A stretch of 64,000 nucleotides of DNA from Eunapius fragilis. Its lineage: Eukaryota; Porifera; Demospongiae; Spongillida; Spongillidae. Where the stretch lies: positions 8,281,263-8,345,262 of the forward strand of contig OY811973.1 of NCBI GenBank assembly GCA_963681505.1, given 5' to 3'. The position numbers and the translations under genes are program-made. The notes under the pieces are model-generated. The model saw nothing but the letters and a program-made list of their open reading frames with translations, searched no databases and was not told where the DNA came from. Numbering within the stretch: the first letter of the stretch is position 1; each line of letters starts with the position of its first letter. This document shows, one piece after another, positions 22,343-52,499 of this stretch.

Positions 22343-23306
22343 CACGTTCAGCACATCGAGAAAGATCGTGAACATTGCTAAATTCGACAATAGATTCCTA
22401 GCTACCGTTCATGCTGCGTACTCTGAACATTACCCGTTGGTTCTGACACCTGACGTCATTTGGATGTGCATTGCGCAAGGCTTTGCGAAACACGTCAACT
22501 GTAATGCGGAGAAGCTACGTCACCTCTTCGTCCAACAGAAGGGTAAGAAGGAACTCCACACGCGTCGTGACGACTTTGACAAAGGATCCCCATCCAACCC
22601 TTGGCCTAAGGTATTCGATGACTTCTCCGCCCAGATTAAAACAGCAGTGGGAGATAAGGTATACGGAGCTCTAACTCCGTCATTCACAGCGACGGGTCCA
22701 GTCGATAGAGCTGCAGCACAGTTGGTGATAATGGACGCCTTTAAGGAGTACTTCAGTTACACGTTACACTCAAGGTGTGGTATTCCGGAAATTACCCTAG
22801 AAGGAACGGTGTCAGATTGGATAGCTCTCAAGGAAAAAGCAATCGCATTGAGAGATTTCGACCTCTCATGGTGGACCGATGAACTAAATCCTATACTGGA
22901 TCAGTTTGTGAAGGCTGCTTCTGGTAGAGTGGACCAGAAGTTTAGGTCATCCATTTATAAACTTGGAGGAGGGTCAGGTGGACCTTTTATCTCAGGATGG
23001 ATAACCACCCTTTTCCCATACATTGGCGAGAATAGGAACCACTACATCGGCCTGTGGAGAGAGAGAAGTGATGATGGTTATTTTTGTGGCATGACAAGTG
23101 ACAACTTCTCACCAGGCCTCTGCTCCACCCCTTTCAAATGGGACTATTTTGGCACTGAGTATCCAATGATATTCTATTCTGGGTTCATGGCCGTCAGCCA
23201 AGACCCAAGTACCTTGGCCTTACGTCCTAAAGTAGGGTGGGCTGTGGCTGACCAAGATGAACATGATCGTCAAGTAGAGCTGGCTGAAAAACAGAGCTTT
23301 TGGTGA
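22343..23306 (+). pseudogene. DUF4419 copy 1, 5'-truncated
   Basis: The open frame matches the other DUF4419 copies from CACGTTCAGCACATCG onward, but everything upstream (about the first 50 codons, including the ATG) is absent and replaced by unrelated sequence. The first in-frame ATG lies inside the conserved block (PDVIWM). The rest is intact: PLVLTPDVIWMCIAQGF, RRDDFDKGSPSNPWPK, LGGGSGGPFISGWITTLFPY and the tail QVELAEKQSFW. DUF4419 proteins have no established function. The copy shares its last 1 kb and its 3' spacer with copy 2. Confidence 0.8.
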
Positions 23307-33837: not shown

Positions 33838-34340
33838 GGTACCGATACGCGCGCACAACAGTATGTGTTCTTGTCGATTCGGTCATACTCTTTGGGTGCC
33901 ACTCATTGCGTGGCCATTTATAGGCTCACAACCTATAACAGTATACGTCAGAGCCATGATATATAGTGCACGGTGTATCAGCTAGACTATGGGAGAGGCG
34001 TGGTCGAGTTAAAGATACATGCAGCATAGCTAGGCTGGAACACATGTAACCCTTCCTTATTGTCGGGATTTGCGTTCTGCTGGCACATGTATTTTAAATG
34101 CCCATCGTTTTTCATTTCATCTGCATGGCTGGCACACACACACCCACCCATGAACCAACACATACACACGTCTCACGTCACACTTATACACACTGTTCTT
34201 TCCCCCTTGCTGTACACCCTGTAAATTGTTAATTGCCCGATCGGTTAGACGTCTAACAGATACCTGAAGATAACATGCGGACACATCCTGAAGCGATTGG
34301 TACACATGGCGTGCTTTACAAACGTTCCTGTCGTGAGTTA
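33838..34340. repeat. Direct duplication, left copy, flanking the GAA tract
   Basis: From GTACCGATACGCGCGCACAA through GGTCATACTCTTTGGGTGCC and GGGAGAGGCGTGGTCGAGTT to CCCCTTGCTGTACACCCTGT the sequence matches 37088-37515 in the same orientation, with indels. The copies are about 3.25 kb apart, and the GAA tract and the 36.1-36.5 kb segment lie between them. I do not see TG..CA ends that would make them LTRs. Confidence 0.8.
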
Positions 34341-34352
34341 TGCTATCCCGAA

Positions 34353-35940
34353 GGAAGAAGAAGAAGAAGAAGAAGAAGAAGAAGAAGAAGAAGAAGAAGA
34401 AGAAGAAGAAGAAGAAGAAGAAGAAGAAGAAGAAGAAGAAGAAGAAGAAGAAGAAGAAGAAGAAGAAGAAGAAGAAGAAGAAGAAGAAGAAGAAGAAGAA
34501 GAAGAAGAAGAAGAAGAAGAAGAAGAAGAAGAAGAAGAAGAAGAAGAAGAAGAAGAAGAAGAAGAAGAAGAAGAAGAAGAAGAAGAAGAAGAAGAAGAAG
34601 AAGAAGAAGAAGAAGAAGAAGAAGAAGAAGAAGAAGAAGAAGAAGAAGAAGAAGAAGAAGAAGAAGAAGAAGAAGAAGAAGAAGAAGAAGAAGAAGAAGA
34701 AGAAGAAGAAGAAGAAGAAGAAGAAGAAGAAGAAGAAGAAGAAGAAGAAGAAGAAGAAGAAGAAGAAGAAGAAGAAGAAGAAGAAGAAGAAGAAGAAGAA
34801 GAAGAAGAAGAAGAAGAAGAAGAAGAAGAAGAAGAAGAAGAAGAAGAAGAAGAAGAAGAAGAAGAAGAAGAAGAAGAAGAAGAAGAAGAAGAAGAAGAAG
34901 AAGAAGAAGAAGAAGAAGAAGAAGAAGAAGAAGAAGAAGAAGAAGAAGAAGAAGAAGAAGAAGAAGAAGAAGAAGAAGAAGAAGAAGAAGAAGAAGAAGA
35001 AGAAGAAGAAGAAGAAGAAGAAGAAGAAGAAGAAGAAGAAGAAGAAGAAGAAGAAGAAGAAGAAGAAGAAGAAGAAGAAGAAGAAGAAGAAGAAGAAGAA
35101 GAAGAAGAAGAAGAAGAAGAAGAAGAAGAAGAAGAAGAAGAAGAAGAGAAGAAGAAGAAGAAGAAGAAGAAGAAGAAGAAGAAGAAGAAGAAGAAGAAGA
35201 AGAAGAAGAAGAAGAAGAAGAAGAAGAAGAAGAAGAAGAAGAAGAAGAAGAAGAAGAAGAAGAAGAAGAAGAAGAAGAAGAGAAGAAGAAGAAGAAGAAG
35301 AAGAAGAAGAAGAAGAAGAAGAAGAAGAAGAAGAAGAAGAAGAAGAAGAAGAAAGAAGAAGAAGAAGAAGAAGAAGAAGAGAGAAGAAGAAGAAGAAGAA
35401 GAAGAAGAAGAAGAAGAAGAAGAAGAAGAAGAAGAGAAGAAGAAGAAGAAGAAGAAGAAGAAGAAGAAGAAGAAGAAGAGAGAAGAAGAAGAAGAAGAAG
35501 AAGAAGAAGAAGAAGAAGAAGAAGAAGAAGAAGAAGAAGAGAAGAAGAAGAAGAAGAGAAGAGAAGAAGAAGAAGAAGAAGAAGAAGAAGAAGAAGAAGA
35601 AGAAGAAGAAGAGAAGAAGAAGAAGAAGAAGAAGAAGAAGAAGAAGAAGAAGAAGAAGAAGAAGAAGAAGAAGAAGAAGAAGAAGAAGAAGAAGAAGAAG
35701 AAGAAGAAGAAGAAGAAGAAGAAGAAGAAGAAGAAGAAGAAGAAGAAGAAGAAGAAGAAGAAGAAGAAGAAGAAGAAGAAGAAAGAAGAAGAAGAAGAAG
35801 AAGAAGAAGAAGAAGAAGAAGAAGAAGAAGAAGAAGAAGAAGAAGAAGAAGAAGAAGAAGAAGAAGAAGAAGAAGAAGAAGAAGAAGAAGAAGAAGAAGA
35901 AGAAGAGAAGAAGAAGAAGAAGAAGAAGAAGAAGAAGAAG
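34353..35940. repeat. (GAA)n tract of about 1.59 kb
   Basis: More than 500 triplets of GAA/AAG run with only about ten single-base slips (AGAGAAG or GAAAGAAG), clustered between 35140 and 35600 plus two near 35780 and 35905. A short GACGACGACGGCGGAGG tail closes it. The poly-Arg, poly-Glu and poly-Lys frames crossing it are repeat artefacts. GAA tracts of this size are known to form triplexes and to silence chromatin in Friedreich ataxia. Confidence 0.98.
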
Positions 35941-36086
35941 ACGACGACGGCGGAGGAGAAATTTTAGGTGGGACTGGGTATGGACGATGGGGACGAGTAT
36001 GTTTGTTCTCTAAAAGTACACCGTCTTATGACACAGATATAACGCAGAACTGTTCTCCTTTTTGATATTGCTCGATTGCCACTAAG

Positions 36087-39282: not shown

Positions 39283-39495
39283 GTGCTTGTCATGCGAGAT
39301 ATTATCTCTCCTATTACTGGCAAAGGAGCATTAGATGTTGTTTGTGAATGCTTGGAACAATCACCACATGCATACAGAAAGGAATTAGAGCCCCAAACGG
39401 ACAGAGCAAGGCGTGGAGCTCTATGTATTGTAGATAAACCAGCCTGCGGGATTGATGAATTTGATAATGATCCAGACGGACCAATATCTATGTAA
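39283..39495 (+). other. Unrecognised short open frame
   Basis: The frame reads VMRDIISPITGKGALDVVCE and continues to DNDPDGPISM before a stop. The composition looks protein-like rather than random, but I recognise no family and see no splice partner. It lies just beyond the 3' side of the degenerate transposon gene to its right, on the opposite strand. Confidence 0.3.
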
Positions 39496-39589
39496 TGAGA
39501 CACATGATATATTAGCACCCATGGGCGCCCCCAGCTTTTCTGGAAAGGGAGGGGCAGGATAGGGCAAGGGGGCGCCATTTGACAACCGC

Positions 39590-39855
39590 GAATACGTTGT
39601 CCGCTTTCGGCAGATTCAACCAGTGAGGGGGTGGGGGTGCTGTCCGCTTCCGGCCGATTCAACCAGTGGGGGTGGGGGGGAGGGGCTGATCTCAGCTTTC
39701 GGTCGATTCAACCAATCAGCGCGCTTCGGCAGATTCAACCAGTGGGTGGTGGGTGCTGTCCGCTTTCAGCCAATTCAGCCAGTGGGGGGTGCGCATGTAC
39801 GTAAACTTATTACAAGGGGGGGGGGGGCATGGCCCCCCCCCCCCCCCCCCCCCGG
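39590..39855. repeat. G-rich tandem repeat with TGTCCGCTTTCGGC units
   Basis: Units of about 40 bases combine GCTGTCCGCTTTCGGC, GATTCAACCAGTGGG and a G run. The block ends in an inverted G12-CAT-GG-C18 structure. The same CTGTCCGCTTC-plus-G-run design recurs at 52600-53230. Confidence 0.8.
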
Positions 39856-42500
39856 GGACGCCAATGGCACCCTTGGCCTGGATTATCACCAGTTGAACTT
39901 ATTTTTGTCTTGAGTGGATCGGCTGAAATTACAGCTTGTACGAAGGCATTGCAAGCCACTTCAAATTCATGTATGCAACTTTGCCTCACCACATGCATTG
40001 CAGCAAACAATCCTAAATACATTTAATCTCAAAAAACCGTGTTCATGATTTAAGCTCATCACTGAACAGCCATACATTTAGCAGTGTTGTCCAAGTCTCC
40101 ATCTCTCCAATTATTAAATATGGTTGGAGAGTAAACAGTGACATCTGAGCAAAAGCTTTCAGATCTCTGCCAACCAAGGAACCTGAATATCAGCATATTC
40201 GCTTTGCCCTTGGCTTCACATGAAATCCGGAGTAATTGAAGGCCTCCATAAAAGCTTGAAGTTGCAAATTGTCTTTGCTTTTCAATGTACTCAGAATGCT
40301 GCGAACAAAGTATTTCAGTGGTCCCAGCAAAAGTGTGTGTAATACCTCAAGAGGAATACAGCTGTATATTATAAATAAGATATCAAAATTATATATTTTA
40401 TATTTGCAAACTTACCAAATTTAATACTGCTGTTTGCTTATCACACAGCCCAGATGCAGTCTTCAGCTCAGTTCGCCGTTCCCCATGTGCTGAAGCAATT
40501 TTCTGAAATTCAGAGATGCTCGCCTCCTTACTTTGCATAATCCCTATCAGATCAGGTGAGTTGTTTACATTGGCCTATAAGGTTGAATTAACAGCACAGC
40601 AGGTTTGAATTAAATGACTGTACATACCGTACACACTCTGCAGAACATTATTGGTCCTCCAGTCATGTGGCCAAGAATTTATGATGTTCTGGGATTGTCA
40701 CAGAGTATCGCAAGCACTGAGCAATAACAAATACATTCTGGTTGAGCATGGCATCAAACATCTCAACTCCATTTTCTAGTGTGCAAAGATCTTTGACAAC
40801 AGCACTCATCGTGTCAACAGCTGCTGCGGTATTAGATGCACACAACAGACGAATATGGCGAAGATGATGGTTTTGCTGTTTTGGAAGACCAGCCAAAAGC
40901 AAACACCATACGTCAAACAGATTCCATTGTTTGTTGCGGTTTCCACTGAGATGATCAGAGTACAGCAATAATGGAGCAACGACAACAGCCATTTCTTTGG
41001 CTTTCTCCTTTACAGGATGTGGAGAGGTGAAGCATTTAGTTTCCTATTTGCAGAAAGGGATAACATTAATCAATGCCTATGAAGACGAACCTCTGAATCC
41101 ATCTGATATCAGATATACGATATCTGTACCAGAATTGCACCAGAATTGGGAATTTTAATTGTGTGATAAATAGCTATTGATAAATAGCAATACTCTGACA
41201 ATCGGAATCTCCTTTATAGTGACTTCATCATGGCCAAGAAATAGAGTATTGTCCTCTGCTGTCAAAGAAAGTGATTCACTGGGAAACAGCTTGGAATACT
41301 GCCACATATTGTACAGGGGGAGAACTGACACGTGAACCTCCTTATCACGTGCCTAGAAATTTCAATGTATGCAATTGTACAATATCATCTGTTCTGCACT
41401 TTTGCTACCACCCGTCCAGATCCAAGGTTATCACTATAAAATTCAATGAAATCATTCACATATATGACCTTGCTCTTGTACAGAATTGTAACAGCTTGAT
41501 ATGCTGCCTCCTTGTTCCCTTTATCAGCCTCCCACATCTCGCTATGACTTATACACATGTAGAGGAAATATTCCAATCTAAAACACCTAAGCAACTTACG
41601 ATACAACATCTGTATGTGATACAGGCAATCTTTGAATAGAGCTGCTGATAGCAGAGTTTCTAAAACAACGCTGCACAACATCAATGGGTTAAGATAAAAG
41701 GGTTCTCCAGTCTCAGTATGCATCTAAATTGAGTGTGAAAAATAGTTGGCAGTCTGTTTAAAAATTATAATTGTGTGATATATTAATAGCCATGGTATAC
41801 TTACGCATACCAGTGATGGTGTTACATAACCAGGCAAAGCAAATCTCTTTAAATCATATAATGATGGTGACGATGGATCGTCCCTTTTGATGATGTGGCA
41901 CATAAACTTCACATTTCTTTCACCCTTATATAGTTAATTGATGATCATCTTCATAGCATGGCTTACCAGAGGACGAGAACTGTGATAGACTGCATATAAA
42001 AGTGCAAACTGTTCTGAAGGAAATTGTTCTGTGTGCTGATTTGGCACTACGTCTAGACATTGCCCCGGATAGAATGAATGACATTTTAGATCAGCTTTGT
42101 TTAACTAACTAGTCACTGTTGATTCTTCACATTCAGATTCAGTCTGAATATCTGATTCACAATCAGAATCAGAGCCAGAACTACTGGATGCGATATTTTC
42201 ACATGCTAGCTCCTCTTCAGACTCCTCTGCAGTGGGTACTTCAAGGTACATATTACCTTCACTGACATCGTAGTGTGCATTGTCCATATCAAACTGCATG
42301 CATATGTGAAATTGTTTGGATTTATATATTGTTCATCCACATCACTTAGTTACCTCAGCTCATTTTATTGAGATTCTAGAGTTTCACCAAACTCCCTGTG
42401 GTTGCTAGATAGTTTATGTCGACAAAGTTGGGATGAATATTCGAACTGAATATTACAAATGCTGCAGTGCCTGGCATGCGTGAATAAGCATAGGTAGATG
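39856..42500 (-). pseudogene. Degenerate C2H2-type transposon gene
   Basis: Reading leftward on the minus strand: a C2H2 zinc finger CSICNIQFEYSSQLCRHKL with the H-x4-H pair (near 42430-42400), an acidic Ser/Asp/Glu segment (42300-42105), then LLLYSDHLSGNRNKQWNLF and HIRLLCASNTAAAVDTM (40990-40800). An exon with NNSPDLIGIMQSKEASISEF (about 40570-40420) and one with VLHTLLLGPLKYFVRSIL (about 40350) follow. An in-frame TGA interrupts the last exon between AKRIC and YSGSLVGRDLK (near 40198). The layout matches a transposon-encoded protein family I have seen in sponges and cnidarians, whose superfamily I cannot name. The stop and broken frames indicate decay. Confidence 0.55.
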
Positions 42501-44542: not shown

Positions 44543-45610
44543 ATGGCCCACAAGACGTTTCAAGTCGACAAGGTTGAGCGAGCTACCAAACTACTACAGT
44601 TATCAACGGTCGACGAAGCAGTCAAAGGACGACTAAAAATCCAATGCGAAGCCACGTTCAGCACATCGAGAAAAATCGTGAACATTGCTGAATTCGACAA
44701 TAGATTCCTAGCTACCGTTCATGCTGCGTACTCTGAACATTACCCGCTGGTTCTGACACCTGACGTCATTTGGATGTGCATTGCGCAAGGCTTTGCGAAA
44801 CACGTCAACTGTAATGCGGAGAAGCTACGTCACCTCTTCGTCCAACACAAGGATAAGAAGGAACTCCACACGTGTCGTGACGATCTTGTCAAAGGATCCC
44901 CATCTAACCCTTGGCCTGAGGTATTCGATGACTTCTCCGCCCAAATTAAAACAGCAGTGGGAGATAAGGTATACGGAGCTTTAACTCCGTCATTCACAAC
45001 GACGGGTCCAGTCGAGAGAGCTGCAGCACAATTGGTGATAATGGACGCCTTTAAGGAGTACTTCAGTTACACGGTACACTCAAGGTGTGGTATTCCGGAG
45101 ATTACCCTAGAAGGAACGGTGTCAGATTGGATAGCTCTCAAGGAAAAAGCAATCGCATTGAGAGATTTCGACCTCTCATGGTGGACAGATGAACTAAATC
45201 CTATACTGGATCAGTTTGTGAAGGCTGCTTCCGGTAGAGTAGACCAGAAGTTCTGGTCATCCATTTATAAACTTGGAGGAGGGTCAGGTGGACCTTTTAT
45301 CACAGGATGGATAACCACCCTTTTCCCATACATTGGCGAGAAAAGGAACGGCTACATAGGCCTGTGGAGAGAGAGAAGTGGTGATGTTAATTTTCGTGGC
45401 ATGACAAGTGACAAATTCTCACCAGGCCTCTGCTCCACCCCTTTCAAATGGGACTATTATGGTACTGCGTATCCAATGATATTCTATTCTGGGTTCATGG
45501 CCATCAGCCAAGACCCAAGTACCTTGGCCTTACGTCCTGAAATAGGGTGGGCTGTGGCTGAACAATCTCAACTTGATCATCAAATAGCGGAGCTGGAAAA
45601 AAAGAAATGA
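44543..45610 (+). CDS. DUF4419 protein copy 4, intact, single exon
   Basis: The 355-codon frame starts at ATG 44543 (MAHKTFQVDKVERATKLLQL). An upstream in-frame start would add 14 residues, but the alignment with copy 3 favours this one. It retains PLVLTPDVIWMCIAQGF, SPSNPWPEVFDDFSAQIK, CGIPEITLEGTVSDW and LGGGSGGPFITGWITTLFPY, and ends SQLDHQIAELEKKK. It has the short RSGDVNFRGM segment like copies 1 and 2 but the AELEK tail of copy 3, so it looks mosaic. No domain other than DUF4419 is visible and the function is unknown. Confidence 0.88.
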   Translation: MAHKTFQVDKVERATKLLQLSTVDEAVKGRLKIQCEATFSTSRKIVNIAEFDNRFLATVHAAYSEHYPLVLTPDVIWMCIAQGFAKHVNCNAEKLRHLFVQHKDKKELHTCRDDLVKGSPSNPWPEVFDDFSAQIKTAVGDKVYGALTPSFTTTGPVERAAAQLVIMDAFKEYFSYTVHSRCGIPEITLEGTVSDWIALKEKAIALRDFDLSWWTDELNPILDQFVKAASGRVDQKFWSSIYKLGGGSGGPFITGWITTLFPYIGEKRNGYIGLWRERSGDVNFRGMTSDKFSPGLCSTPFKWDYYGTAYPMIFYSGFMAISQDPSTLALRPEIGWAVAEQSQLDHQIAELEKKK

Positions 45611-47554: not shown

Positions 47555-48079
47555 TAGTTCATATTAATTTGATTACATAATTGGAACTTCCTGGGTGTGT
47601 ATCTGTTTCTTGTCGCGTGATCAGTACTTCTATGCTATGGCCCACAAGACGTTTCAAGTCGACAAGGTCGAGCGAGCTACCAAACTACTACAGTTATCAA
47701 CGGTCGACGAAGCAGTCAAAGGACGACTAAAAATCCAATGCGAAGCCACGTTCAGCACATCGAGAAAAATCGTGAACATTGCTGAATTCGACAATAGATT
47801 TCTAGCTACCGTTCATGCTGCGTACTCTGAACATTACCCGCTGGTTCTGACACCTGACGTTATTTGGATGTGCATTGCGCAAGGCTTTGCGAAACACGTC
47901 AACTGTAATGAGGAGAAGCTACGTCACCTTTTTGTCCAACACACGGGTAAGAAGGAACTCCACACGTGTCGTGGCGATCTTGTCAAAGGATCCTACGGTG
48001 GCCCGGTAGGTCGCGCTCTCGAGCGATGAGCTTCGAGCGGTTTAGACGTTGTGCTGAAGACACAAAAGCTGTTAAGCTC

Positions 48080-48260
48080 AGAGCTATGACACATTTAGCG
48101 TTCCGGCCGTAAGCCCAAAGCCCAGAGCAGTGACGCAATTAGCGTTACGGCCGTAAGCCCAAAGCCCAGAGCAATGACGCAATTAGCGTTACGGCCGTAA
48201 ACTCAAAGCCCAGGGCTATGACGCAATTAGCGCTCCGCCCAATGACTCAGAGCAATGACG
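48080..48260. repeat. Subterminal 45-bp repeats of the palindrome, left arm
   Basis: Four units contain AGCGTTACGGCCGTAAGCCC with AAAGCCCAGAGCAATGACGC. Each holds the palindrome ACGGCCGT. The mirror set lies at about 50880-51080. Confidence 0.85.
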
Positions 48261-48300
48261 CAATGACTCAGACCGAATTGGCGTTTAGTCCCAAAGGCGT

Positions 48301-49510
48301 TTAGTCTAAGAGCTCAGGGAGAACTATGGGATGGATCGGATATATTACGTCATATATGTTTACGGTGTCACGTGATGGAAAGTTCAGCAACATGCTTCGC
48401 AACGATCCTAAAGTGGAACGTAAGAAAGGCAGCTCATTGTTAGCGTTGAGGCTATCATTCTCATCAACTTGGTAGGTCTCATACTGCGCTATTGGAGGCA
48501 AAACAAGACCATCGCAAATGCTCGCATATTTACGCTTCGTCCACCACGTTTCAGCATGCAGGGTGTGTTTCAAGATTTGCATTTTGCAAAATACTTATTT
48601 TTAATTGTAGGCTCACTTGGCTAAAACGGAAAGTGGCTGAGCTTGGATTAAAACGACGTGGCCAACTTGAAACACCTCTACAACAACTAGTTAAAACTAT
48701 CAAGGTGTTCCCGTTTTTATTCATGTACTATCCTGAATTACCCTTGTTCCCCCCCCCCCCCCCCCCCCCCCCCCCCTCAGATGGAGCTGGTTTTTAAGAG
48801 TGAACTTAGATTAGATTATCAGTGGGTGGTCCAAGGCCTTACACTTCAGGCTGTCATTGCAGCCTTTAAGGATTTGCTGTGTGTACAAGTACTTGATAGT
48901 CTGCTGTAATCCAACTACAGTATGATCAATTGGTTAGAATGTGCAGGCACATGTACATGTAAGTGCATGTGTGCAAGGAAAATACATGCATGTAAGCTTA
49001 GTAGCCCTGTGGTTTAAGGGTTGTGTGTTTAGATAAACAATGTGGGTTGAGGGGTGGTACTTATATGCACACACACTTGGCCACAGCTTGTTTTGACTGT
49101 TCCTTTGTTCTGGCTTCATGTTTGCAGTGTTATTGTAGTTTGGCCTTGCAGGGTGTCCTGTGCGCATAAGAGCAGATTGTGGGAGTGATAATGTTGCTTC
49201 GGCACCACCATCATGATCGCTACTCTTGACCTAACTGCTTTGTGTTTGGAAGTTCCATCCGAAACACCGTAAATACATAAATTCTCATTCCTTTTTTTCA
49301 TGATGCATACTCTTGACAGCAAATTGAAAGCTGGTGGTCTAGACTGAGACGTTTCAGAACAGATTTTTAAAAAGGTATCTTGTTTATGAGTATGTGCTTT
49401 TTTTTTTTACTTATTAATTCTTTTCAGGGACTGGTGGAAGAAGGATTGTATGACACTACAATTGGTGCCAGCCAGCCACCCCAATTCTACCCTGATAAAT
49501 TTAAACTGAT
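48301..49510 (+). pseudogene. Integrase-like gene fragment captured in the palindrome
   Basis: In the left arm (+) splice-like segments read WLKRKVAELGLKRRGQLETP, then LRLDYQWVVQGLTLQAVIAA (about 48790-48870) and LVEEGLYDTTIGASQPPQFY (about 49430-49490). The first pieces resemble the helical region upstream of the catalytic core in a family of integrase-like animal proteins (LKRRG-TPL, then a GYR-type motif); this is a tentative match. No DDE core follows. A mirror copy is in the right arm. A 93-codon frame on the opposite strand (48582-48301) with HAETWWTKRKYASICDGLVL is the other readable piece, function unknown. Confidence 0.4.
48749..48777. repeat. Poly-C tract inside the palindrome, left arm
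   Basis: Nearly 30 C. The mirror arm has an interrupted poly-G of about 50 bases (50358-50408), one of the few places where the arms differ. Confidence 0.9.
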
Positions 49511-50357
49511 CATATTCTGTCATATTTGAACATAGCACAAGATGAAATCACAGCAGATAATTGCAAAGCTGTGTATTGTTTTTGTTTGTATGAATTATCC
49601 AAATTAGAATGAAAATGATTACTTGTGTTTTCCACCTAGTTGTTCAATGGTAGTGTCATGCAATCCTTCCACAAGTCCCTCAAAAGAATAAGTAAAAAAA
49701 AATGCACATACTCATAAACAAGATGCCTTAAAAAGTTAATCCACCAATTTGTAGCTGTTATGAAACGTCTCAGTCTAGACCACCAGCTTTCAATTCGCTG
49801 TCAAGAGTATGCAGCATGAAAAAAAGTAATGAGAATTTATGTATTTACGGTGTTTCGGATGGAGCTTCCAAACACAAAGCAGTTATGTCCAGAGTAGCGA
49901 TCATGATGGTGGTGCCGAAGCAACATTATCACTCCCACAATCTGCTCTTATGCGCACAGGACACCCTGCAAGGCCAAACTATAAAACACTGCAAACATGA
50001 AGCCAGAACAAAGGAACAGTCAAAACAAGCTGTGGCCAAGTGTGTGCGTGTGTGCATATAAGTACCACCCCTCAACCCACATTGTTTATCTAAACACACA
50101 ACCCTTAAACCACAGGGCTACTATGCTTACATGCATGTATTTTCCTTGCACACATGCACTTACATGTACATGTGCCTGCACATTCTAACCAATTGATCAT
50201 ACTGTAGTTGGATTACAGCAGACTATCAAGTACTTGTACACACAGCAAATCCTTAAAGGCTGCAATGACAGCCTGAAGTGTAAGGCCTTGGACCACCCAC
50301 TGATAAGAACTGATAATCTAATCTAAGGTCACTCTTAAAAACCAGCTCGATCTGAGT

Positions 50358-50390
<33 letters not shown>

Positions 50391-52499
50391 GGGGGAGGGG
50401 GGGGGGGGAAAACAAGGGTAAATTCAGGATAGTACATGAATAAAAACGGGAACACCTTGATAGTTTCAACTAGTTGAGAGGTGTTTCCAGTTGGCCACGT
50501 CGTTTTAATCCAAGCTCAGCCACTTTCCGTTTTAGCCAAGGGAGCCTACAATTAAAAATAAGTATTTTGCAAAATACAAATCTTGAAACACACCCTGCAT
50601 GCTGAAACGTGGTGGACGAAGCGTAGATATGCGAGTATTACTGCGATGGTCTTGTTTTGCCTCCAATAGCGCAGTATGAGACCTGCCAAGTTGATGAGAA
50701 TGATAGCCTCAACGCTAACAATGAGCTGCCTTACTTACGTTCCACTTTAGGATCGTTGCGAAGCATGTTGCTGAACTTTCCATCACGTGACACCGTAAAC
50801 ATATATGACGTAATATATCCGATCCATCCCATAGTTCTCCCTGAGCTCTTAGACTAAACGCCTTTGGGACTAAACGCCAATTCGGTCTGAGTCATTGCGT
50901 CATTGCTCTGAGTCATTGGGCGGAGCGCTAATTGCGTCATAGCCCTGGGCTTTGGGTTTACGGCCGTAACGCTAATTGCGTCATTGCTCTGGGCTTTGGG
51001 CTTACGGCCGTAACGCTAATTGCGTCACTGCTCTGGGCTTTGGGCTTACGGCCGGAACGCTAAATGTGTCATAGCTCTGAGCTTAACAGCTTTTGTGTCT
51101 TGAGCACAACGTCTAAACCGCTCGAAGCTCATCGCTCGAGAGCGCGACCTACCGGGCCACCGTAGGATCCCCATCTAACCCTTGGCCTGAGGTATTCGAT
51201 GACAATTCTCCGCCCAAATTAAAACAGCAGTGGGAGATAAGGTATACGGAGCTTTAACTCCGTCATTCACAACGACGGGTCCAGTCGAGAGAGCTGCAGC
51301 ACAGTTAGTGATAATGGATGCCTTTAAGGAGTACTTCAGTTTCACGTTACACACAATGTGTGGTATTCCGGAGATTACCCTAGAAGGAACGGTGTCAGAT
51401 TGGATAGCTCTCAAGGAAAAAGCAATCGCATTGAGAGATTTCGACCTCTCATGGTGGACAGATGAACTAAATCCTATATTGGATCAGTTTGTGGAGGCTG
51501 CTTCTGGTAGAGTGGACCAGAAGTTCTGGTCATCCATTTATAAACTTGAGGGAAGGTCAGGTGGACCTTTTATCTCAGGATGGATAACCACCCTTTTCCC
51601 ATACATTGAGGAGAATAGGAACCACTACATCGGCCTAAGGAGAGAGAGAAATTGCGACGCTGATGAGATGTACATGTTTGATAACATGACAAGTGACAAC
51701 TTCTCACCAGGTCTCTGCTCCACCCCTTTCAAATGGGACTATTATGGCACTGAGTATCCAATGATATTCTATTCTGGGTTCATGGCCATCAGCCAAGACC
51801 CAAGTACCTTGGCCTTACGTCCTGAAATAGGGTGGGCTATAGCTGAACAATCTCAACTTGATCATCTAATCATTACCAGAAATTTCGGACGCTCATTACG
51901 TATTCCTGACGCGTCAATGCAAACGTCCGTTAATTTTCCGCGCACGCGTCCATTGACATGTATGGAACAAAGTGAATTTCTGTTCAGTATAAATCAGGAA
52001 TCGTCAGAAAAAAGGAAGGCGGTCAAATATATAGTTAAGAACATCTTTTACTATGCTTTATTGATGAAACAAAAAAATTCAGGGTCTATCTGTAGGTTCC
52101 ATGGCCCTAAAACAACACGTCCATAGACACATGTAGAAATTGTGTAGAAATTTGGGTTTTGTCAAGATGTTTGTGCATTTTTCTCAGGATCTGTGATAGT
52201 TGCAGTAAGAATCAGTGATTAAAATGTTAGCCAGATCATCGAGGAAGGGGCCAGATACCATAAAACACTCTTTCCTCTACTTTTCAAGGTTCCAGAGTCA
52301 CTTCAGTGGTGTTAGGTACTGAATGTCCCATTATTAATTCTTCCACTTGCATGACGTAATGGACGTTTTAATACGGGCTCTGCCACTGTGTGACTCACTC
52401 AGGTATGTTACATCTGAGGTGCTTATATAGGCGTTCTACATGTGCGTAACAGCCATAGCTTGACCCACACACGTAGTATATATACATGGGCGTATCCAG

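Follow-up and report, generated by a model that had tools for sequence, protein, structure and literature searches.

A 3,171-bp palindrome in a DUF4419 copy of Eunapius fragilis, most likely a foldback transposon of IS3EU/GingerRoot type

Foldback transposons with very long terminal inverted repeats (TIRs), and hairpins of the Mu killer kind, are already known. One 9,021-bp copy of Galileo, a P-superfamily element of Drosophila, has TIRs of 4,246 and 4,680 bp; Galileo TIRs have also taken up sequence of the transposase open reading frame (ORF), a trait that as of 2014 was considered peculiar to this element (PMC4168063). Tm1 elements of root-knot nematodes comprise hairpin-motif, transposase-bearing and miniature inverted-repeat transposable element (MITE)-like groups (PMC3169594), and maize Mu killer is an example of a parent transposon silenced by an inverted duplication of its transposase (PMC3440606). 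In IS3EU, every complete family terminates in TA..TA and target-site duplications (TSDs) are usually 6 bp long; GingerRoot TSDs are also 6 bp, and most of these families likewise terminate in TA..TA (PMC10045372). Here we describe a 3,171-bp palindrome lying within the fifth DUF4419 copy of a 64,000-nucleotide stretch of the sponge Eunapius fragilis (the window, C3:8281263-8345262; genome searches covered the 219-Mb assembly of 24 contigs). The element is most likely a non-autonomous foldback DNA transposon of IS3EU/GingerRoot type.

The palindrome, its ends and its transposase sequence

The palindrome, composed of a 1,471-bp left arm, a 180-bp loop and a 1,520-bp right arm, occupies exactly the boundaries given by a first-pass annotation, whose giant inverted repeat with ~1.5-kb arms and a 180-base loop is borne out by arm alignment (Table 1). 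The two arms differ at 29 of 1,455 gap-free columns, with a further 81 gap columns, the largest gap falling at a C/G tract, and the longest perfect stem measures 221 bp. Pairing involves 94% of the element, so the TIRs fill most of its length as in foldback elements, and each arm carries three internal direct repeats, another foldback feature; these subterminal repeats had been noticed before and stand, with their length corrected from 45 to 44 bp.

GGATCC is present on both sides of the element, whereas in DUF4419 copy 4 the corresponding site is uninterrupted and GGATCC occurs once, representing an empty site. GGATCC is therefore a 6-bp TSD; the element inserted into DUF4419 copy 5, as had been proposed, and interrupted its domain. 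Relative to copy 4, the left flank contains 14 substitutions in 499 aligned columns and the right flank 40 in 706. Immediately right of the insertion, at 51171-51230, copy 5 exceeds copy 4 by 2 bases, a length change not divisible by three. The insertion site matches at window positions 22572, 29346, 31596, 44880 and 51160, marking a cluster of DUF4419 copies; the match at 51160 represents the right-hand part of the split copy.

The terminal 17-mer occurs 202 + 181 times genome-wide with up to one mismatch, against 0 occurrences of a reversed-pattern control, ruling out chance; a search for copies with the TACGGTGGCCCGG end, which had been called for, thus recovers many. TACGG...CCGTA delimits all 21 tabulated elements, namely those with both ends readable and including that of the window, in agreement with the TA..TA termini of IS3EU and GingerRoot. 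The flanking duplications vary in sequence, with six matching bases in 16 elements, seven in four and none in one. A seventh matching base in 4 of 20 elements is close to chance expectation, and the 20 of 21 elements with six or seven matching bases fit the 6-bp TSD of these families.

Gene pieces within the palindrome, previously taken to be captured, match fragments of the family's own transposase through the exons of relatives, and captured host genes are rejected on this ground. The relatives are 3.3-kb non-palindromic elements, such as L012 (C9:7154429-7157759), with TIRs of ~0.5 kb and integrase-core transposase pieces. Their first catalytic exon matches PF24764 at 29.9 bits, above the curated cut-off of 26 (E=5.8e-7), and two further pieces match below the cut-off (E=0.027 and 0.022), the latter reaching E=0.0026 inside a longer ORF. 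In the palindrome, a second-exon fragment is found in each arm, and a 3' exon lies in the loop at 49496-49609 (C3:8330758-8330871; 84% identity, 2 stops). Intact transposases matched directly to the palindrome give weak scores (E=0.23-0.29, with E=0.29 for 49151-49195 of the left arm), the link via the relatives' exons being stronger. Of seven ORFs compared with Pfam, five have no match and one has a chance-level match only (E=0.12).

PF24764 has at least 155 matches in this genome, a lower bound from 150 scored candidates of 475. Among them are open frames 514 and 521 aa long, and 14 control genomes give 0 matches. Three candidates for an autonomous element, two of ~5.5 kb and one of 7 kb, were rejected because they contain no long transposase frame; one of them, L059, is itself 69% palindromic. 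The locus at C2:6.35 Mb contains short frames only and no end motif. Elsewhere in the window, pieces at 39322-39925 resemble the 514-aa frame at C4:1.08 Mb, a PF24764-type transposase, over its C-terminal part (E=1.5e-8 and 0.003, with one stop). The interval 34001-36000 exhibits extreme strand asymmetry, with a GC skew of 0.72, an AT skew of 0.83 and a purine-rich strand.

Table 1. Features of the palindromic element and its insertion site (window coordinates)
Feature	Position	Strand	Evidence
DUF4419 copy 5, 5' part, ending in one GGATCC	47595..47993	+	PF14388, E=5.7e-20
Left TSD copy, GGATCC	47988..47993	.	
Whole element: palindromic non-autonomous transposon, most likely of IS3EU/GingerRoot type	47994..51164	+	
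Left arm, corresponding to transposon 5' half	47994..49464	+	
Terminal 17-mer TACGGTGGCCCGGTAGG, common to the family	47994..48010	+	
Three 44-bp subterminal repeats, left arm	48074..48240	+	
28-base C tract; counterpart in other arm a longer, interrupted G tract	48749..48776	+	
Second transposase exon fragment, second catalytic D region, left arm	49170..49265	+	C3:8330432-8330527; 78% identity to relative's exon, 1 stop, E=6.6e-10
Loop: single-copy 3' end of transposase gene	49465..49644	+	
Right arm: inverted second copy of 5' half, replacing the relatives' 3' end	49645..51164	-	
Second transposase exon fragment, right arm, strand opposite to that of left arm	49852..49941	-	C3:8331114-8331203; 80% identity, no stop, E=1.7e-9
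Three 44-bp subterminal repeats, right arm	50918..51084	-	
Terminal 17-mer, right end	51148..51164	-	
Right TSD copy, GGATCC	51165..51170	.	
DUF4419 copy 5, 3' part	51171..52126	+	PF14388, E=7.5e-53 for 51230-52123
Empty-site comparison: uninterrupted DUF4419 copy 4, single GGATCC	44880..44910	+	

Copies, anatomy and formation

Both arm-loop junctions, searched as 24-mers with up to 4 errors, are shared by six fetched loci (the window on C3, C1:22.24 Mb, C1:0.32 Mb, C2:5.93 Mb, C4:3.13 Mb and C4:11.47 Mb) and absent from all fetched 3.3-kb relatives, a distribution for which one origin of the six is the simplest account. The TSDs differ, with GGATCC around the window copy and CTTAAA around that at C1:22.24 Mb. 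Together with the empty site and the dispersed copies, these duplications indicate that the palindrome transposes.

Comparison of the window and C1:22.24 Mb copies, oriented by their loops, reveals 7 differences in 1,413 columns between left arms and 2 in 1,507 between right arms. All four arms can be compared at 1,400 sites, of which 27 separate left arms from right arms (arm-split), none separates one copy from the other (copy-split) or follows the crossed pattern, 8 are singletons or other, and 1,365 are invariant. The 27 arm-split against 0 copy-split sites indicate that the palindrome predates its last jump and moved as a unit. The earlier description of the palindrome as recent is rejected on the same counts, the arms having split before the last transposition, and on the junctions shared by six loci. 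At C4:3127402-3137046 (L021, L022), a palindrome copy with the TSD CCTTTG extends across 9.6 kb; an insertion of ~6 kb appears to have split it later.

Alignment to L012 places the end of both arms at the same base, 2200, and the loop at 2542-2728. The arms correspond to L012 positions 1 to 2200 less an internal segment of ~0.74 kb, and the first catalytic exon lies within this missing segment. Between arm and loop, 341 bases are deleted relative to L012, the deletion beginning at the base where the stem ends, and at the right junction the trinucleotide GTT is common to the loop end and the inverted arm. Because arms, loop and junctions align in this manner, the palindrome reads as a transposon 5' half, a 341-base deletion, the 3' end of the gene as loop, and an inverted 5' half replacing the 3' end.

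A single formation event could have produced this arrangement if, during repair synthesis such as that filling an excision gap, the template was switched at the 3-base GTT match and the 5' half was then copied back out in inverted orientation. The 341-base deletion may represent trimming of the hairpin loop, since it begins exactly at the stem end. Once formed, the palindrome would be moved in trans by a related transposase recognizing its ends and the 44-bp subterminal repeats on both arms, cut-and-paste transposition thereby acting on two equal ends, and in some copies the arms may have exchanged sequence by gene conversion.

Palindrome formation appears to recur among elements with these ends. 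The 20 elements measured are a non-random set, selected because they match the window element, because they came first in the end search or because of the spacing of their ends. Their paired fraction is at least 93% in 8, 69-82% in 3 and 18-47% in 9; the 71% recorded for L032/L033 is an overestimate caused by a gapped alignment (481 gap columns). Six palindromes of 2.4-2.6 kb among these 20 have arms without a match to those of the window palindrome at E up to 1e-10, and by this measure form another subfamily. Among the 93 genomic hits to the first transposase exon, pairs no more than 8 kb apart are convergent in 12 cases, divergent in 1 and tandem in 0, against a mean of 3.2 and a maximum of 10 convergent pairs in 10,000 random-strand shuffles, a control that ignores common descent. 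Nine of the 12 convergent pairs are spaced nearly equally, at 3.32-3.42 kb, and so probably share one origin. The pair count took in 93 of 93 first-exon rows, 58 of 59 second-exon rows and 53 of 54 C-terminal rows, one overlapping row being dropped from each of the latter two.

At C6:758308-766029 (L077, L078) lies a 7.7-kb element in which each side holds all three transposase exons, those on one side facing the opposite way to those on the other; ~2 kb of each outer arm was read, and these segments show 25 differences in 1,369 columns. Short palindromes composed of two outer arm segments of ~0.3 kb each with ~60 bp between them are found at C4:5214921-5215778, where the terminal motifs span 858 bp, and at seven further places; these are MITE-like relatives with the same ends. 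Two ends, L034 (C1:5138903) and L035 (C1:5259364), have the same 12 flank bases, an identity that suggests regional duplication rather than two insertions.

Competing explanations

Fold-back artefacts of assembly do exist, and a fold-back read or a mis-join could have duplicated one arm. For this palindrome such an origin is very unlikely and was rejected, as the arms differ at 29 sites and by indels, 27 differences between the arms are found again at C1:22.24 Mb, on a different contig and with a different TSD, the empty site and the TSD are exact, and the junctions are common to six loci. An inverted duplication arising in place within the DUF4419 copy, without transposition, would agree with the presence of only one pair of family ends in the window; it is less probable still, being contradicted by the target duplication, by the empty site in copy 4 and by five further loci with the same junctions, and was likewise rejected.

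The palindrome might instead be a foldback transposon from a different superfamily whose target duplications are similar: P (Galileo) and Mutator (Tm1) elements include foldback-like forms, and six fetched loci yielded no intact PF24764 frame between ends of this kind. TSD lengths are 6-7 bp for Dada and 7-8 bp for P elements. This alternative is improbable given that TSDs here are mostly 6 bp, the ends are TA..TA and the transposase pieces of the relatives match the integrase-core profile. Several points nevertheless weigh against an IS3EU/GingerRoot foldback transposon with one origin. The relatives' 3' exon piece (70 aa) matches no Pfam family, and TSDs are absent at C1:19.16 Mb (one of the 21 elements) and at C6:758308-766029 (outside the 21). 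None of the elements read is an intact autonomous one with these ends, and the 1.5-kb flanks of six intact PF24764 loci contain no TA..TA end pair with a 6-bp TSD. At C4:3.13, C4:11.47 and C1:0.32 Mb, the arms group by copy in the tree, with supports of 0.933, 0.990 and 0.856; as the junctions are nonetheless shared, this grouping suggests gene conversion between arms, with repeated origin a conceivable alternative.

Hairpin RNA and comparison with known systems

The palindrome is a possible source of hairpin and small RNAs. A Mu killer-like role, in which a predicted hairpin RNA with transposase sequence would be processed by Dicer into small RNAs silencing related transposons, is a tentative proposal that we consider unlikely; the palindrome would then persist because hosts carrying it are protected, a function added to the foldback transposon reading and not replacing it. 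Maize Mu killer is a partial inverted duplication of a transposase gene with terminal repeats (PMC3440606), and here a portion of the second transposase exon is found in each arm, the two portions facing opposite ways. Predicted small RNAs would have targets in the five 3.3-kb relatives tested, which have 1,099 to 1,173 perfect 21-mers in common with the palindrome; 420 to 539 of these lie over 700 bp inward from the ends of the relatives. The excess of convergent first-exon pairs points in the same direction. Against this role, a working transposase encoded by the 3.3-kb relatives is putative, foldback structure occurs in other superfamilies, and few 21-mers are shared with L059 (6), L060 (4) or the outer 2 kb on the two sides of the C6 element (49 and 86). 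The broader proposition, that IS3EU-type transposons repeatedly duplicate their own 5' half in inverted form and that the resulting mobile hairpin-RNA palindromes silence their autonomous parents, is somewhat more doubtful again; if true, it would describe a self-limiting transposon system whose silencer itself jumps.

Long palindromes are expected to be lost quickly. The kilobase palindromes described here have nevertheless outlived at least one transposition and multiplied, and the distribution of sites by arm and by copy offers direct timing of palindrome survival, arm-to-arm conversion and jumping. No foldback form of IS3EU was found in the literature searched, a weak absence because most subscription papers fell outside its scope.

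IS3EU and GingerRoot have TA..TA termini, a 6-bp TSD and probably an integrase-like transposase in common with the element described here; palindromic or foldback forms go unmentioned in the accessible part of that account, whereas here the arms make up 94% of the element and include transposase sequence (PMC10045372). Tm1 Mutator/Foldback elements resemble it in their foldback-like composite TIRs with internal repeats and differ in a 9-bp TSD and a Mutator-type transposase, one described element measuring 1,080 bp (PMC3169594). With Mu killer it shares a partial inverted duplication of transposase sequence and terminal repeats and a proposed hairpin RNA; Mu killer is a dominant locus reported to silence MuDR, whereas the sponge palindrome is mobile and multi-copy with a hypothetical silencing role (PMC3440606), and would provide a mobile natural test case for hairpin-triggered transposon silencing. 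Galileo likewise has very long TIRs incorporating transposase ORF sequence, but belongs to the P superfamily and has a 7- or 8-bp TSD (PMC4168063); the palindrome of E. fragilis would add a second superfamily, an integrase-like one, to that in which inverted repeats have taken up transposase sequence.

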